Shown: positions 381 to 63,570 of the stretch, piece by piece
Position numbering within the stretch: position 1 is the stretch's first letter
How the letters are laid out: every line of letters begins with the position of its first letter
DNA from: Spirochaetales bacterium
GTDB taxonomy: Bacteria; Spirochaetota; Spirochaetia; Treponematales; UBA12059
Assembly (NCBI GenBank): GCA_016926955.1
Contig: JAFGNN010000025.1
Location: forward strand, 1 to 64,000
DNA length: 64,000 bases
Direction of reading: 5' to 3'
Notes under the pieces: model-generated
Told to the model about the DNA's origin: nothing
What the model saw: only the letters and a program-made list of their open reading frames with translations
Database searches by the model: none
Position numbers and translations under genes: made by a program

Positions 381-2117
381 TTACAGGTCCAGGGCCTTTT
401 CGGCGAGCTTGGCCTTGGCCCGCTCGACGAAGGCTTCCACCTTCATGGGCGGCAGCTGCTCGCCGCCGCGGACGCGCACCGCCACGGTCCCCTCCTCCGC
501 CTCGCGGCCGCCGACCACCAGCACGTACGGAACCTTCTGGTTCTGCGCGTCGCGGATCTTGGCGTTCATGCGCGAGTCGGACAGGTCGGCCTTGGCGCGG
601 AGCCCCGCGGCGCGGAGCTTGCCCTCGACCGCCTTGGCGTACTCGTCGAAGGTCGGCGCCACCGGCACCACCACGGCGTGCTCGGGCGAGAGCCACAGCG
701 GGAACGCGCCCGCGGTGTGCTCGAGGTAGACGCCGAAGAAGCGCTCGATGGAGCCGAGGAGGGCGCGGTGCACCATGTAGGGCCGCTTCTTCTGGCCGTC
801 GGAGTCGACATAGGTCATGTCGAAGCGCTCGGGCTCGTTGAAGTCGAACTGGATGGTGGTCAGCTGCCACTCGCGGCCGATGGCGTCCTTGACCTTGATG
901 TCGATCTTGGGGCCGTAGAAGGCGCCGCCGCCCTCGTCCATCTCGTACGCGAGCCCTTCCTTCTCGACCGCCTTGCGGAGGCTCTCGAGCGCGGTGTCCC
1001 ACATCTCCGGAGCGCCGACCGCGCCGTCGCCGGCCGGACGGGTGGCCAGATAGGCCTTGATGTCCTTGAAGCCGAGGGTCCGGTGCATGGAGAGGCTGAA
1101 GCGCAGCACCTCGGCGATCTCGTCCCCGATCTGCGCCGGGGTGCAGATGATGTGGGCGTCGTCCTGGGTGAAGCCGCGCACGCGCATGAGGCCGTGCAGG
1201 GTGCCCGAGCGCTCGTAGCGGTAGACGGTGCCGAGCTCCGCCCAGCGCAGGGGCAGGTCGCGGTACGAGTGCGCGTTCGAGTTGTAGATCATGATGTGGA
1301 AGGGGCAGTTCATGGGCTTCAGGTAGTAGTCGTCCTCGTCGATCTTCATCGATGAGTACATGCTTTCCTTGTAGAAGCCCAGGTGCCCCGAGGTCTCCCA
1401 GAGCCAGCTCTTGCCGATGTGCGGGGTGAAGAGGATCTCGTAGCCGTTCGCGTAGTGCTCGTCGCGCCACCAGTTCTCGAGCGCCACGCGGAAGCGGCCG
1501 CCCTTCGGGTGCCAGTACACGAGCCCCGCGCCCGCCTCCTCGTGGGTCGAGAAGAGGTCGAGCTCCTTGCCGAGGCGGCGGTTGTCGCGCTTCTCGGCTT
1601 CCTCGAGCATCTTGAGGTGGGCTTCGAGCTCCGCCTTGGACGCGAAGCAGTATGCGTAAAGGCGGGTCAGCATGGGGCGCTTCTCGTCGCCGCGCCAGTA
1701 CGCGCCGGCCACCGAGCGCAGCTTGAACGCGTCGGGGCGGATCTCGCGGGTCGACTCGACGTGGGGGCCGCGGCAGAGGTCGACGAAGCCGTCCTGCTCG
1801 TAGAGGCTGATGGTCCCCTCCTCGAGCCCCTCGATCAGCTCGAGCTTGAAGGGCTCGTCGGCGAAGAGCTTCATCGCGTCGGCCTTCGACACCTCGCGTC
1901 GCTCGAACTTCGCCCCGGAGGCGATGATCTTCCGCATCTCCTTCTCGATGGCGGGAAAGTCCTCCTCGCGGATCGGCTCGGTGAGCTGGAAGTCGTAGTA
2001 GAACCCGTCGTCGATGGCGGGCCCGATGGCGACCTTGCTGCCGGGCCGGAGGCGCAGCACGGCCTCGGCCATGACGTGGGACGCGGAATGCCGGATGGTT
2101 TCGACGTTCGCGGACAT
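381..2117 (-). CDS. thrS: Threonyl-tRNA synthetase, form lacking the N-terminal TGS domain
   Basis: 578 aa; class II aaRS motifs (MNCPFHIMIYNSNAHSYRDLPLRWAELGTVYRYERSGTLHGLMRVRGFTQDDAHIIC), HxxxH second-additional-domain motif (HSASH), C-terminal anticodon-binding domain. Confidence 0.97.
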   Translation of the reverse strand: MSANVETIRHSASHVMAEAVLRLRPGSKVAIGPAIDDGFYYDFQLTEPIREEDFPAIEKEMRKIIASGAKFERREVSKADAMKLFADEPFKLELIEGLEEGTISLYEQDGFVDLCRGPHVESTREIRPDAFKLRSVAGAYWRGDEKRPMLTRLYAYCFASKAELEAHLKMLEEAEKRDNRRLGKELDLFSTHEEAGAGLVYWHPKGGRFRVALENWWRDEHYANGYEILFTPHIGKSWLWETSGHLGFYKESMYSSMKIDEDDYYLKPMNCPFHIMIYNSNAHSYRDLPLRWAELGTVYRYERSGTLHGLMRVRGFTQDDAHIICTPAQIGDEIAEVLRFSLSMHRTLGFKDIKAYLATRPAGDGAVGAPEMWDTALESLRKAVEKEGLAYEMDEGGGAFYGPKIDIKVKDAIGREWQLTTIQFDFNEPERFDMTYVDSDGQKKRPYMVHRALLGSIERFFGVYLEHTAGAFPLWLSPEHAVVVPVAPTFDEYAKAVEGKLRAAGLRAKADLSDSRMNAKIRDAQNQKVPYVLVVGGREAEEGTVAVRVRGGEQLPPMKVEAFVERAKAKLAEKALDL

Positions 2118-58065: not shown

Positions 58066-58902
58066 TCAGCGCTCAAGGCAGGCGAGGTAGGAGTCGTCTA
58101 TCTTCCGGCCCCCCGACGTACGCCCGAGGCGGCGCTCGGGGCGGCCGGGACCATGGAAGTCCGAGCCCGCGCTGACGCGGAAGCCGAACTCGCGCGCGAG
58201 CTTCTCCAGCCGCGCGCAATGGCCCTCGCGGGCGCCGGGGTGCCAGGCTTCGATGCCGTCGACGCCGTATTCCTTCCATTCCCCGAAAAGCAGCCTGAGC
58301 CGCGTCCACGACACGAACAACGACATGGGATGGGCGACGAACGCGAGCCCCCCCGCGCGCTTGACCGCCGAGACGGCCTCGTCGAGAGGCAGGCAGGACT
58401 TGGGCGACCAGAAGGGGCGGTGCTTGCCGAGGTATTTATCGAAGGCGTCCTGGCGATTTTTCGCGGCCTTGCGGGCGACGAGCCAGTCGGCGATGTGCGG
58501 CCGGCCAACCACGCCGCCGGAGGCGTCGCGCAGCTCGCCGTAGTCTCCCTCGATGCCCGCCTCGCGCATGCGGTCGAAGATGCGCTCGTTGCGCTCGTGG
58601 CGCGAGTCCGCGAGGCTGGCGCAGGTCGCGGCAAGCGGGCCCTTCCAGTCGCGGAGCTCGAGGCCGAGCAGGTGGAACTCGCCGGGCGCGAAGGAGATCT
58701 CGAGCTCGACGCCGGGCACGAGGCGGAGCCCCGAGGCGGACGCGGCCGCAAGGGCCTCGTCGACGCCGGCCACCGTATCGTGGTCGGTCAGCGCGAGAGC
58801 CGAGACGCCTTCCTTCGCGGCGCGCGCGACCAAGTCCGAGGGGGAGAGCGAGCCGTCGCTCGCGGTGGAGTGTGAGTGCAGGTCGATCACGCCCTCCAGC
58901 AT
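58066..58902 (-). CDS. PHP-domain phosphoesterase
   Basis: VIDLHSHSTASDGSLSPSDLVARAAKEGVSALALTDHDTVAGVDEA...SAGSDFHGPGRPERRLGR. Confidence 0.92.
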   Translation of the reverse strand: MLEGVIDLHSHSTASDGSLSPSDLVARAAKEGVSALALTDHDTVAGVDEALAAASASGLRLVPGVELEISFAPGEFHLLGLELRDWKGPLAATCASLADSRHERNERIFDRMREAGIEGDYGELRDASGGVVGRPHIADWLVARKAAKNRQDAFDKYLGKHRPFWSPKSCLPLDEAVSAVKRAGGLAFVAHPMSLFVSWTRLRLLFGEWKEYGVDGIEAWHPGAREGHCARLEKLAREFGFRVSAGSDFHGPGRPERRLGRTSGGRKIDDSYLACLER

Positions 58903-58998: not shown

Positions 58999-59014
58999 GC
59001 TGCGCAAAAACCGC

Positions 59015-59044
59015 TTGACACGGACGCCGGAGCCATGTTTCTAT
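59015..59044 (+). promoter_or_regulatory. Putative sigma-70 promoter of the his operon
   Basis: TTGACA (59015-59020), 18-nt spacer, TTCTAT (59039-59044); predicted start only a few nt before hisL. Confidence 0.55.
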
Positions 59045-59054
59045 CCCGAGCATC

Positions 59055-59150
59055 GTGAACGAACGACGTTTCGCCCTCGGCACCGCCCTCCTCCATCATC
59101 ACGGCCACCACAGCGCGGCCGCGATGCGGGTCGGCGCGTTCCGGGACTAG
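59055..59150 (+). CDS. hisL: his operon leader peptide, 31 aa, HHHGHH
   Basis: GTG start; VNERRFALGTALLHHHGHHSAAAMRVGAFRD*, 5 His codons within 6 (59094-59111), followed by attenuator hairpins and hisG. Confidence 0.85.
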   Translation: MNERRFALGTALLHHHGHHSAAAMRVGAFRD

Positions 59151-59172
59151 CGGGACGCGACAACGACCAGAG

Positions 59173-59247
59173 CGCCGGCCGGAAGGCCGGCGTTTTCGTT
59201 TCCCTGGCGGAACGGCGCCGGCTTCGAACGAGGCCGGCGCCGTTTTT
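59173..59247 (+). terminator. his attenuator: two tandem hairpins, the second an intrinsic terminator
   Basis: cgccggcc(ggaa)ggccggcg-TTTT at 59173-59196; cggcgccggc(ttcgaacgag)gccggcgccg-TTTTT at 59213-59247; the 3' arm of hairpin 1 can alternatively pair with the 5' arm of hairpin 2. Confidence 0.8.
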
Positions 59248-59296: not shown

Positions 59297-60166
59297 ATGG
59301 AAACGGGAACGAAACTCCGCATCGGCCTGCCGAAGGGCCGTATGCAGGAAGCGGTGCTCGCGCTGCTCGCCGAGGCGGGCCTCGCGGTCAGGCTCGGCGA
59401 GCGCGACTACCGGCCGACTGTGGCCGGGGGCGGCTTCGACGCAAAGCTGCTCAAGAGCCAGAACATCGTCGAAATGCTCGCGGCGGGCACGCGGGACCTG
59501 GGCTTCGCGGGCGCGGACTGGGCGCGCGAGCTCGGGGCCGAGCTCGTGGAGGTGCTCGACACGGGCTTCGACCCGGTCACCCTGGTGGCGGCCGCCCCGG
59601 CGGCCTCGCTCGGCCCCGGCGGGGAGCTGCCGCGCAAGGCCCTCGTCGTCGCGAGCGAGTACGAGGCCATAGCGCGCGCCTGGATAGCGGAGCGCGGCCT
59701 CGAGGCCGTGTTCGTGCGCTCCTACGGGGCGACCGAGGCCTTTCCGCCCGAGGACGCCGACGTGATCATCGACAACGTGGCGACGGGCTCGACGCTCCGC
59801 GCCAACCGCCTGGCGGTGGTCGACGAGCTCATGCGGAGCACGACGCGACTCTACGCGAGCCGCGAGGCCATGGCCGATCCGGAGAAGGCGCGCGACGTCG
59901 AGCGGGTGGCCCTGCTCTGCCGCTCCGTGCTGGCGGCGCGCGGCCGCGTGATGCTCGAGGTCAACGTGGGCTCCGACGCGCTCGATGCCGTGGTGGCGGC
60001 GCTGCCGTGCATGCGCGAGCCCACCGTGTCGGCGCTGCGCGGGGGCGGGGGCTGGGCCGTCAAGGTGGCCGCCCCGCGCGAGGCCCTGCCGACCCTGATC
60101 CAGGAGATCCGCGCACGCGGCGGCACGGACATCGTCGTCACCGAACCTTCATGGATCGTGCCGTGA
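59297..60166 (+). CDS. hisG: ATP phosphoribosyltransferase, long form
   Basis: KLRIGLPKGRMQEAVLALLAEAGLAVR, DLGFAGADWARE, VIIDNVATGSTLRANRL, C-terminal ACT-like domain. Confidence 0.95.
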   Translation: METGTKLRIGLPKGRMQEAVLALLAEAGLAVRLGERDYRPTVAGGGFDAKLLKSQNIVEMLAAGTRDLGFAGADWARELGAELVEVLDTGFDPVTLVAAAPAASLGPGGELPRKALVVASEYEAIARAWIAERGLEAVFVRSYGATEAFPPEDADVIIDNVATGSTLRANRLAVVDELMRSTTRLYASREAMADPEKARDVERVALLCRSVLAARGRVMLEVNVGSDALDAVVAALPCMREPTVSALRGGGGWAVKVAAPREALPTLIQEIRARGGTDIVVTEPSWIVP

Positions 60167-61287
60167 GCGCGGCGTACGCGCTGCCCTCGGGCGCGGCCCT
60201 CGTCCCGCGCGCCGACCTGCCCGAGGCCTACGTGCCGCCACTCCGTGCGGACGGCGTCGACCTGGCGCTCGACGCGAACGAGGGAGGGAAGCCGGAGGCG
60301 TTCGCCTCGCTGCTCGGCGATCTCCCGGCCTGGCGCGCGCGGGCGGAAAGCGCCCTGAGCCTCGCGCGCGCGTATCCGGACGCGCGTGAGCTCGAGGCGG
60401 CGATCGCGCGGCGCTTCGGCCTCGATCCGGATTCCTGCCTGGCCTGCTGCGGCTCCGACGACGCGCTGTCCCGCTCGCTCCGCGCCTTCGCGCGGCCGGG
60501 CTCCCGGGTGCTCGTCCTCGAGCCGGGCTTCGCCATGTTCCGCGTCCACGCGACCCTCGCGGGAGCGGAGGCGCTCGGCGTCCCCTGGCCCGAGGGCACG
60601 GAGTTCCCGCTCGACGCGGTGGCGAAGGCCTTGCGCGATGATCCCGGCATCGGCGCCCTCTGCCTGGCCAGCCCCGCCAACCCGACGGGCGCAGCCATCA
60701 CGGAGGAGGCTTTCGACAAACTCGCCGGGCTCTGCCGGGGACGCCTGCTCGTGGCGGACGGCGCCTACGCGGAGTTCGCGCGCTTCGACCTCCGCGCGGC
60801 GGCCGCCCGCCTGATCCGCTCCGGCCGAGCTGACGTCGTGGCGCTCGGCACCTTCTCCAAGGCCTACGGCTTGGCCGGGCTCCGCGTCGGCTACGCGCTC
60901 GCGGCGCCCTCCACGATCGGGGCCCTCCGCGCGGCGGGCCTGCCCTACCCCGTCGGCGGCCTCGCGGCGGCCATCGCGCTCGAGGCCCTGGGGAACGAGG
61001 CTGCCCTCGCCCGCTCGGTCGCCTTCGCCCGGGAGGCGCGCGGCCGGATTTTCGCCTCGCTCGCGGCGGCCGGCGCGGAAGTTTTTCCCTCGGAAGCGAA
61101 TTTCGTGTTCGCCCGCCTGCGCGACGCTCGCGCTTTCGCGGCCGCGCTCGCCGGCCGCGGCATCGCCGTCCGTTCGTGGCCCGAGGGAAGCGCCCTCGCT
61201 GACGCGGTGCGCGTCGGCTGCCCGCCCGACGACTGCTCGCTCGGGCGCCTCGAGGCCGCCATCGCCGCGGCGGGAGGTTTCGCATGA
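60151..61287 (+). CDS. hisC: Histidinol-phosphate aminotransferase
   Basis: LDANEGGKPEAF, CGSDDALSRSLRAF, LASPANPTGAAI, GTFSKAYGLAGLRVGYALA. Confidence 0.95.
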   Translation: MDRAVSAAYALPSGAALVPRADLPEAYVPPLRADGVDLALDANEGGKPEAFASLLGDLPAWRARAESALSLARAYPDARELEAAIARRFGLDPDSCLACCGSDDALSRSLRAFARPGSRVLVLEPGFAMFRVHATLAGAEALGVPWPEGTEFPLDAVAKALRDDPGIGALCLASPANPTGAAITEEAFDKLAGLCRGRLLVADGAYAEFARFDLRAAAARLIRSGRADVVALGTFSKAYGLAGLRVGYALAAPSTIGALRAAGLPYPVGGLAAAIALEALGNEAALARSVAFAREARGRIFASLAAAGAEVFPSEANFVFARLRDARAFAAALAGRGIAVRSWPEGSALADAVRVGCPPDDCSLGRLEAAIAAAGGFA

Positions 61288-61922
61288 GCGTCATCGCCTC
61301 CACCCCGGCGTCGGGATCCGTTTCCCGCGCGGCAGCGATCGAGCGGGTCACGCGAGAGACGCGCGTCGTCGCCTCGCTCGTCCTCGAACCCGGAGCGGTG
61401 AACGTCGCGACCGGCGTCGGCTTCCTGGACCACCTGCTCGCCACCCTGGCCTTCCACGCGCGCTGGACGCTCGAGCTCCGCGCGGACGGCGACCTCCAGG
61501 TCGACGAGCACCACACGGCGGAGGACTCCGCCCTCGTCCTCGGAACCCTCCTCGACCGGGCCCTCGGCGAGCGCGCCGGCATCAGGCGCTTCGGCTCAGC
61601 CCACGCCTGCCTCGACGAGGCGCTCGCACGCGCCGTGGTCGACCTCGGGGGCCGGCCCTGGTGCGAAACCTCGCTCGAGCTCGTCCGTCCCGCCATCGGC
61701 GCCCTGGCCGCCGAGAACATCGCCCACGTCGTCCGGAGCTTCGCGACAAACGCGCGCGCGGCCGTCCACCTCGACGTGCTCCGCGGCGGCAACGACCACC
61801 ACAAGGCCGAGGCGGCCTTCAAGGCGCTCGCCCTCGCCCTGCGCGAAGCGCTCGCCCTCGATCCCATGGACGCCGCCGGAGGCGCGGCGCGCGTCCCCAG
61901 CCTGAAAGGAACGCTCGCATGA
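61284..61922 (+). CDS. hisB: Imidazoleglycerol-phosphate dehydratase
   Basis: TGVGFLDHLLATLAFHARW, DLQVDEHHTAEDSALVLG, LDVLRGGNDHHKAEAAFKALALALREAL. Confidence 0.97.
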   Translation: MSVIASTPASGSVSRAAAIERVTRETRVVASLVLEPGAVNVATGVGFLDHLLATLAFHARWTLELRADGDLQVDEHHTAEDSALVLGTLLDRALGERAGIRRFGSAHACLDEALARAVVDLGGRPWCETSLELVRPAIGALAAENIAHVVRSFATNARAAVHLDVLRGGNDHHKAEAAFKALALALREALALDPMDAAGGAARVPSLKGTLA

Positions 61923-61951
61923 AGGACGCTCGCATGAAGGACGCTCGCATG
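61906..61951 (+). repeat. Tandem 15-nt repeat duplicating the hisH RBS/start region
   Basis: AAGGAACGCTCGC-ATG-AAGGACGCTCGC-ATG-AAGGACGCTCGC-ATG; ATGs at 61919, 61934 and 61949, all in frame. Confidence 0.95.
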
Positions 61952-62686
61952 AAACATGACGAAACGCCGCCGCGGGGCTCCACGCCGGTCGTCGTGGCGC
62001 GTACCGGGGTGGCCAACCTCGCCAGCGTGCGCGCCGCCTTCGCCCGGCTCGGCCGGGAGACGGCGCCCACGTCCGACCCGGAGGCCTTCGCGCGCGCCCC
62101 GCTCGCGGTGCTGCCCGGCGTCGGCGCCTTCGGCCCCGCCATGGAAACGCTCCGCGCCACCGGCCTGGACGAGGCCGTGCGGCGGCGCCTGGCCCGGGGA
62201 CTCCCGACCCTGGCCATCTGCCTGGGCTTCCAGCTCCTCCTCGAAGGGAGCGAGGAGGCACCGGGGCTCGCGGGCCTGGGACTCGTGCCGGGCGTCGCGC
62301 GCCGCTTCGGCGAAGGGGTGCGGATTCCACAGCTCGGCTGGAACCGCGTGGCCCCGGAAGCGGACGACGGATCGGCTCTCGTTGAGGAGGGCTGGGCCTG
62401 CTTCGCCAACTCCTACAGGCTCGACTCATGCGATGCCGCCCTCGCGCGCGCCGCCGGGTGGCGCCCCGCCCTCGCGGAATACGGCGGCGCCTTCGTCGCG
62501 GCCCTCGAGCGCGGAACCGCGCTCGCCTGCCAATTCCACCCCGAGCTCTCGGGCGCCTGGGGCGCGGCCCTGCTCCGGCGCTGGCTCGAGCGCGCCGACG
62601 CGGCCGTAACGGGCGGGCGGGGGACAGGTCCCGACGGGCGGCGGTCCCTTTCGGAGGCCGTAAGCGTGGCGGGAGCTTCGCGATGA
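61919..62686 (+). CDS. hisH: Imidazole glycerol phosphate synthase glutaminase subunit
   Basis: VVARTGVANLASVRAAFARLG, VLPGVGAFGPAMETLR, LAICLGFQLLLEGSEE, CQFHPELSG; start may be any of three in-frame ATGs. Confidence 0.95.
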   Translation: MKDARMKDARMKHDETPPRGSTPVVVARTGVANLASVRAAFARLGRETAPTSDPEAFARAPLAVLPGVGAFGPAMETLRATGLDEAVRRRLARGLPTLAICLGFQLLLEGSEEAPGLAGLGLVPGVARRFGEGVRIPQLGWNRVAPEADDGSALVEEGWACFANSYRLDSCDAALARAAGWRPALAEYGGAFVAALERGTALACQFHPELSGAWGAALLRRWLERADAAVTGGRGTGPDGRRSLSEAVSVAGASR

Positions 62687-63570
62687 GCGCCCTCCGCGTC
62701 ATACCCTGCCTCGACGTGAAGGCCGGCCGCGTCGTGAAGGGCGTGCGCTTCAGTAAGCTCGCCGACTCGGGAGACCCCGCCGCGCTCGCCGCGCGCTACG
62801 AGGACGAAGGCGCCGACGAGCTCGTGCTGCTCGACGTGTCCGCGACGCTCGAGGACCGCAAGGCGGCGCTCGGCGCCGTACGGGCGACGCGCGCGGCCCT
62901 CGGCATCCCGCTCTGCGTCGGCGGCGGCGTGCGGAGCGCCGACGATGCGGCGCGCCTCCTCGAGGCCGGAGCCGACAAGGTGGCCGTCAACTCGGCCGCG
63001 CTGAGGAACCCGTCCTTGATTGAGGAAATCGCCGAGCGTTTCGGCAGCCAGTGCTGCGTGCTCGCGGTCGACGCGCTCCGGGCTCCCACAGTCCCCGAGG
63101 CGGCCGTCGCGTGCCGGGAGCGGTTCCCGGCTGCCTTCGCCGCCGCGCGCGAGTTCGCCGCGCGCGCCCTGGAGCGCCCGGGCTCGGTGAAAGCCGTGCC
63201 GGCGGGCATGCGCGCGGCGGCCGCCTGGGAAGCGGTGGCCGACGCGGGCACCCTCCGAACCGGCGCGAGCGCCCTCGGTTGGGCGCTCGCCGGAACGGAG
63301 CTCGGCGCGGGCGAGATCCTCCTCACCTCCATCGACCGCGACGGCACGGGTTCGGGCTACGAGCTCGAGCTCGTCGCCGCCGCGGCCGGCATACTCCCGG
63401 TGCCGCTCGTCGCTTCAGGCGGCGCGGAAACCGCGGAGCACTTCCTCGCGGGCGCGCGCGCCGGGGCCCGGGCCCTGCTCGCGGCCGGCGCCTTCCACGC
63501 GGGTCGGCTCACGATCCGCGACCTCAAACGCTCGCTCCTGGCGGGCGGTCTGGAGCTCAGGCCATGCTGA
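62683..63570 (+). CDS. hisF: Imidazole glycerol phosphate synthase cyclase subunit
   Basis: RVIPCLDVKAGRVVKGVRF, YEDEGADELVLLDVSAT, LCVGGGVRSADDAARLLEAGADKVAVNSAAL, GAGEILLTSIDRDGTGSGYELELV. Confidence 0.96.
   Translation: MSALRVIPCLDVKAGRVVKGVRFSKLADSGDPAALAARYEDEGADELVLLDVSATLEDRKAALGAVRATRAALGIPLCVGGGVRSADDAARLLEAGADKVAVNSAALRNPSLIEEIAERFGSQCCVLAVDALRAPTVPEAAVACRERFPAAFAAAREFAARALERPGSVKAVPAGMRAAAAWEAVADAGTLRTGASALGWALAGTELGAGEILLTSIDRDGTGSGYELELVAAAAGILPVPLVASGGAETAEHFLAGARAGARALLAAGAFHAGRLTIRDLKRSLLAGGLELRPC

Follow-up and report, generated by a model that had tools for sequence, protein, structure and literature searches.

The hisGCBHF operon in the analysed stretch of DNA (64,000 nucleotides, below called the window) is very probably controlled by a ribosome-mediated transcription attenuator. 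This reading follows from a conserved His-rich leader ORF and a conserved terminator, from the pairing of leader segment 2 with its cognate segment 3, from covariation, from computed folds and from the his genes that lie downstream. A second terminator follows the first in the window and in part of the related genomes. The more far-reaching proposal, according to which this is a leaderless spirochaete amino-acid attenuator where one stalled ribosome, loaded at the 5' end, opens two serial terminators by 2:3 and then by 4:5 pairing, is put forward tentatively, with the balance tilting against it.

The leader precedes five genes whose neighbours overlap or abut (Table 1). The loci nearest by HisG (96–98% identity) come from Spirochaetes bacteria, which settles the nature of the host, left conditional in a sequence-only reading of this DNA. 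The same reading had recognized a His-codon leader of 31 codons before hisG, and this was confirmed: the ORF is the only one with at least five His in eight codons among ORFs of 8–70 codons on both strands of 345 kb of the genome, and for ORFs with at least four His in eight codons the background is 0.0026 per 450 nt on each strand. The Rfam model RF00514 (His_leader) gave no match at the leader, neither at the gathering threshold nor up to E=5, and no T-box was found upstream of hisG, near position 59000, at E≤5. Elsewhere in the window, where the earlier reading had placed a T-box, there is a weak match to RF00230 (2331–2741, minus strand, 38.5 bits, E 5.4e-5); its location immediately before an ORF resembling threonyl-tRNA synthetase (381–2117, minus strand) speaks for that assignment, while its score against a gathering threshold of 93 bits speaks against it. 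Within the operon, the HisF-like protein exceeds its family profile by about 40 residues (297 aa versus 254 positions), which is probably due to a mid-protein insertion.

Table 1. Elements of the leader region, the his operon and the neighbouring gene in the window
Feature	Positions	Strand	Description	Evidence
Phosphoesterase-like gene	58066-58902		opposite direction to the his operon	
Predicted sigma-70-type promoter	59015-59043	+	TTGACA (59015-59020), 17 nt, TTTCTA (59038-59043)	sequence, scoring
Alternative -10 register	59039-59044	+	TTCTAT	sequence, scoring
hisL-like leader ORF	59055-59150	+	GTG start, 30 codons, TAG; peptide MNERRFALGTALLHHHGHHSAAAMRVGAFRD	
Regulatory codons	59094-59111	+	CAT CAT CAC GGC CAC CAC (HHHGHH)	read from sequence
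Segment 1	59097-59106	+	within the His codons; predicted partner 59117-59126 (1:2 protector)	RNAfold
Segment 2	59116-59127	+	within the ORF; predicted partner of segment 3 under stalling	folds, permutation, covariation
Hairpin over leader stop codon	59129-59168	+	enclosed by the 2:3 antiterminator	RNAfold
Segment 3	59172-59181	+	5' arm of terminator 1 and first loop base	folds, permutation, covariation
Terminator 1 (3:4)	59173-59201	+	CGCCGGCC GGAA GGCCGGCG then TTTTCGTTT; hairpin 59173-59192, stem 59173-59180 with 59185-59192	in 39/39 leaders of families f1 and f4; covariation
Segment 4	59185-59192	+	3' arm of terminator 1, complementary to segment 5	pairing energies, folds
Terminator 2 (5:6)	59212-59247	+	ACGGCGCCGGCTTC-GAAC-GAGGCCGGCGCCGT (59212-59243) then TTTT	in 19/39 leaders of f1 and f4
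Segment 5	59212-59225	+	5' arm of terminator 2	pairing with segment 4
hisG (long form), first operon gene	59297-60166	+		TIGR00070, 135.5 bits (cut-off 75.75); TIGR03455, 68.9 bits, over cut-off
hisC-like	60151-61287	+		NCBIfam match below family cut-off
hisB	61284-61922	+		NCBIfam match below family cut-off
hisH	61916-62686	+		NCBIfam match above curated cut-off
hisF	62683-63570	+		NCBIfam match below family cut-off

The region upstream of hisG was surveyed in 110 genomes from four families (f1, f3, f4, and f5) of the host's order, and a His-rich leader ORF was present in 65 of these regions: 16 of 16 in f1, the family of the host, 23 of 23 in f4, about 15 of 33 in f5, and 11 of 38 in f3. The conservation in relatives, proposed by the earlier reading as a check, was thus found in f1 and f4, where all 39 leaders retain the His run and carry a U-tract terminator 15–40 nt past the leader stop. 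Apart from their His runs, peptides of different genera are unrelated (compare MSNDLFVQFSHLHHHGHAHAVAMIVIP, MNRNFSVPMGSKALHHHHGHHRREAGAL, and MTEIKLHSHHHAFSSFSA), as expected if the codons and not the peptide matter. In the large genera g23, g16, and g28 most members have hisG without a His-rich leader, which suggests either loss or a different control. In genus g19 the distance from the leader to hisG is 337 nt in L062, L064, and L065 and 158 nt in the fourth genome, L063, so that about 180 nt of something separates attenuator and hisG in the three.

In other orders of the class a convincing leader was found in 11 of 40 regions, belonging to families f7, f8, f9, f13, and f22, and the terminator of these leaders differs from the type seen in the host's order. 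Seven of them (L163–L167, L170, and L172; f7, f8, f13, and f22) look like a second, unrelated design of his attenuator, with the start codon 6–8 nt past the −10 box. In the leaders of f7, f8, and f22, inspection by eye shows a segment resembling GAAGTGCG opposite CGCATTTC in the terminator arm.

The predicted promoter of the window is closely followed by the leader ORF: the GTG is the only start codon in frame from the −10 box to the His run and lies 10–11 nt past that box, too close for a Shine-Dalgarno sequence. A TTGACA-like box with a spacing of 16–19 nt is found in nearly all relatives' leaders, and of the order's 65 leaders, 64 have their first start codon in frame 5–10 nt past the −10 hexamer, the promoter being of the TTGAC type; in the exceptional one (L046) the promoter was misplaced by scoring, and the arrangement is the same by eye. 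By chance an in-frame start would occur in such a stretch in roughly 9% of cases (a rough estimate from two codons at 3/64 each). The same short distance is present in 9 of the 11 leaders from outside the order. The start codon is ATG in nearly all leaders of the order and GTG in the window. Transcription begins about 6–8 nt after the −10 box, so a 5' UTR of about 0–5 nt is predicted, in which no Shine-Dalgarno sequence fits, and translation of the leader is probably leaderless or nearly so. These observations suggest that leaderless initiation is the norm for the spirochaete leader peptides, and with such a start the ribosome would be loaded immediately when the RNA emerges from the polymerase. 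Leaderless initiation is best studied in mycobacteria. Some spirochaete genomes also have leaderless genes, and in those genomes their share was about 4% in one survey (PMC3160421).

In the RNA that follows, two U-tract hairpins lie between the leader and hisG. According to the sequence-only reading the first hairpin was the 1:2 pause structure, the second the 3:4 terminator, and the pairing between them the 2:3 antiterminator. The complementarity itself is real, since the 3' arm of hairpin 1 forms with the 5' arm of hairpin 2 a duplex of −18.9 kcal/mol, and the stem of hairpin 2 is the stronger of the two. However, hairpin 1 possesses a U-tract of its own, missed in that reading, and is thus terminator-like itself; it starts some 60 nt after the His codons, so that a ribosome stalled there could not mask it. 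In addition, all 39 leaders of f1 and f4 possess hairpin 1, while hairpin 2 is missing from about half of the relatives in which leader and hairpin 1 are kept, and better segments 1 and 2 were found inside the ORF. The proposed 2:3 pairing therefore corresponds to 4:5 in the present numbering. The comparison with relatives led to the rejection of this assignment of segments, and as a version of the mechanism it is very unlikely; what was retained is the more general proposal of a ribosome-mediated his attenuator.

The 1:2 helix folds in most leaders (RNAfold), and when the His region is masked and arm 4 is not yet made, 2:3 forms in the window and in nearly all relatives. A hairpin occurs at the same place over the leader stop in the relatives, its sequence being unrelated to that of the window. 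Once arm 4 is present, the equilibrium in the window favours 3:4 over 2:3 by about 12 kcal/mol, and consequently the switch must act kinetically. Kinetic switching is usual for attenuators.

The 2:3 and 3:4 complementarity is genus-specific. Segment 2 prefers its own segment 3 (−19.7 kcal/mol) to the segments 3 of other genera (−16.5 kcal/mol; 18 genera, permutation p=5e-5), and restricting arm 3 to its switch part gives p=2e-5 overall and p=1.4e-4 for f4 by itself. For f1 by itself the permutation of 2:3 was not significant (p=0.16), because the sequences there are nearly identical. Through the changes seen between relatives, the alignment positions of segment 3 remain able to pair with segment 2 as well as with segment 4, and in the f1 alignment the covariation scores of 3:4 and of 2:3 were each matched by 0 of 500 shuffles. 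Statistically the weakest helix is 1:2 (permutation over genera, p=0.04), which gave no covariation within f1 and is constrained by codons anyway.

These data also bear on the question of whether the region might be a product of chance or a set of unrelated elements, namely ordinary GC-rich terminators or a bidirectional terminator of the phosphoesterase-like gene. High-GC DNA folds readily, and 29 terminator-like hairpins, these two included, were found in 345 kb; nevertheless the His run, the spacing, the terminator, and the 2:3 complementarity are conserved over 18 genera. The phosphoesterase-like gene points away from the leader, so that its own terminator would sit at the other end. An origin of this kind is barely credible.

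The preferred reading, a his attenuator with terminator 1 as its 3:4 hairpin, may be described in the following steps. Transcription would start at the GTG of the leader or few bases from it. With ample His-tRNA the ribosome would reach the stop codon and cover segment 2, 3:4 would form, and transcription would halt before hisG. With scarce His-tRNA the ribosome would stall on HHHGHH and mask segment 1, which would allow 2:3 to form, block terminator 1, and let the operon be transcribed; in genomes with tandem terminators the antitermination would be helped by 4:5. Without translation 1:2 would form and 3:4 would terminate by default.

Stalling might instead alter the folding around the hisG ribosome-binding site, making the control translational. 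In four genomes of genus g8 that have no second terminator (L025, L026, L027, and L034) the motif CCTTC.CGAG could indeed form a pairing with CTCGGAAGG, located at the Shine-Dalgarno sequence of hisG. This pairing is inconsistent across the g8 genomes, and the U-tract of terminator 1 is universal in f1 and f4, so such control is considered highly improbable. Sequestration of the hisG Shine-Dalgarno sequence as a candidate element was dropped on account of the same inconsistency between genomes.

Attenuation at terminator 1 leaves the role of the second hairpin to be explained. Tandem terminators are present in 19 leaders of f1 and f4 from eight genera, the window included. The DNA from terminator 2 to hisG shows no evident promoter; hence expression of hisG requires terminator 2 to be passed, either because it is relieved or because it is leaky. 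In a relay extending the core model, segment 4, freed by 2:3 pairing, would pair with segment 5 and disarm terminator 2 in the manner of a domino. One stalled ribosome would then open both terminators, and in the repressed state terminator 2 would catch leakage past terminator 1.

Several observations are consistent with the relay. The 4:5 pairing is cognate-specific (−17.8 versus −15.9 kcal/mol; 8 genera, p=0.0066). With segment 5 out and segment 6 unmade, 12 of the 19 tandem leaders fold as 2:3 plus 4:5 at minimum energy, and in 11 of these 12 the fold was 3:4 before segment 5 was added. In the window 0.8 kcal/mol separates the 2:3 plus 4:5 fold (−63.5 kcal/mol) from the fold with 3:4 (−64.3 kcal/mol), the gap being about 12 kcal/mol without segment 5. 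In a control that covered 345 kb of the host genome, none of 27 other sampled terminators matched terminator 2 in pairing with segment 4, although this control is small and the best of the others reached −18.1 and −17.8 kcal/mol against −18.9 kcal/mol. On the other side, the GCCGGC core is common to most genera, the minimum-energy fold stays unswitched in the window and in six other tandem leaders, and the idea was formulated after the data had been seen. Furthermore, if terminator 2 arose as a copy of terminator 1, the duplication would yield the same 4:5 complementarity automatically. For this reason the relay stays at the level of a hypothesis that seems possible, somewhat short of an even chance; if confirmed, it would be a simple way to tighten repression while induction is kept.

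Other parts of the genome were also considered. Family searches of the genome gave no match for trpE and only matches below cut-off for leuA- and ilvB-like genes, and in the upstream regions inspected for these no leader rich in Leu or Ile was seen. When 345 kb were scanned for a promoter with an immediate short ORF and a terminator, two other candidates were returned, in neither of which an amino-acid run was found. The window also contains strong palindromic stretches at 257–373 and 2775–2925, to which several microRNA models match spuriously; their translations include words like TTEARR.GE and PPCLRG, which suggests a dispersed palindromic repeat.

The logic described here is that of enteric his attenuation, and the his attenuators so far known outside Proteobacteria are candidates from Firmicutes. 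No report of his attenuation in spirochaetes was found in the literature searched, and an earlier mention may exist, for example in the broad survey by Lopatovskaya et al. (2010); with this proviso, classic his attenuation is extended to a bacterial class for which no published report was found, with very wide phylogenetic support. The spirochaete leader resembles the enteric attenuator (hisL; RF00514) in having a His-rich leader before hisG, the 2:3 and 3:4 pairings with a putative 1:2, and a U-tract terminator. In contrast to enteric hisL, it is unrelated in sequence and without Rfam match, its His run is broken (HHHGHH), its start codon is predicted to coincide with the transcript's 5' end or lie close to it, its antiterminator encloses a hairpin, and a second terminator is present in many genomes.

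Candidate his attenuators are known in Firmicutes (PMC9413887, PMC2965389). Those of the Bacillus cereus group, Peptostreptococcaceae, and Erysipelotrichales are likewise comparative predictions, with three to five successive His codons before his operons (PMC9413887), but they belong to another phylum; the text of that source does not name spirochaetes, and the passages considered mention neither a leaderless start nor tandem terminators. The rimP-leader (PMC2965389) likewise combines tandem terminators before a gene, and a potential antiterminator accompanies one of them; it precedes a different gene, has no amino-acid leader peptide, carries its second terminator upstream, and is described in the passages considered without a 4:5 relay. 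The probable leaderless start finds its counterpart in the poly-cysteine short-ORF attenuators of mycobacteria (Canestrari et al. 2020, as cited in PMC9094748). According to the citing paper, these are leaderless regulatory short ORFs, rich in the sensed amino acid, that control downstream genes; they use cysteine and belong to Actinobacteria, whereas the spirochaete leader uses histidine.
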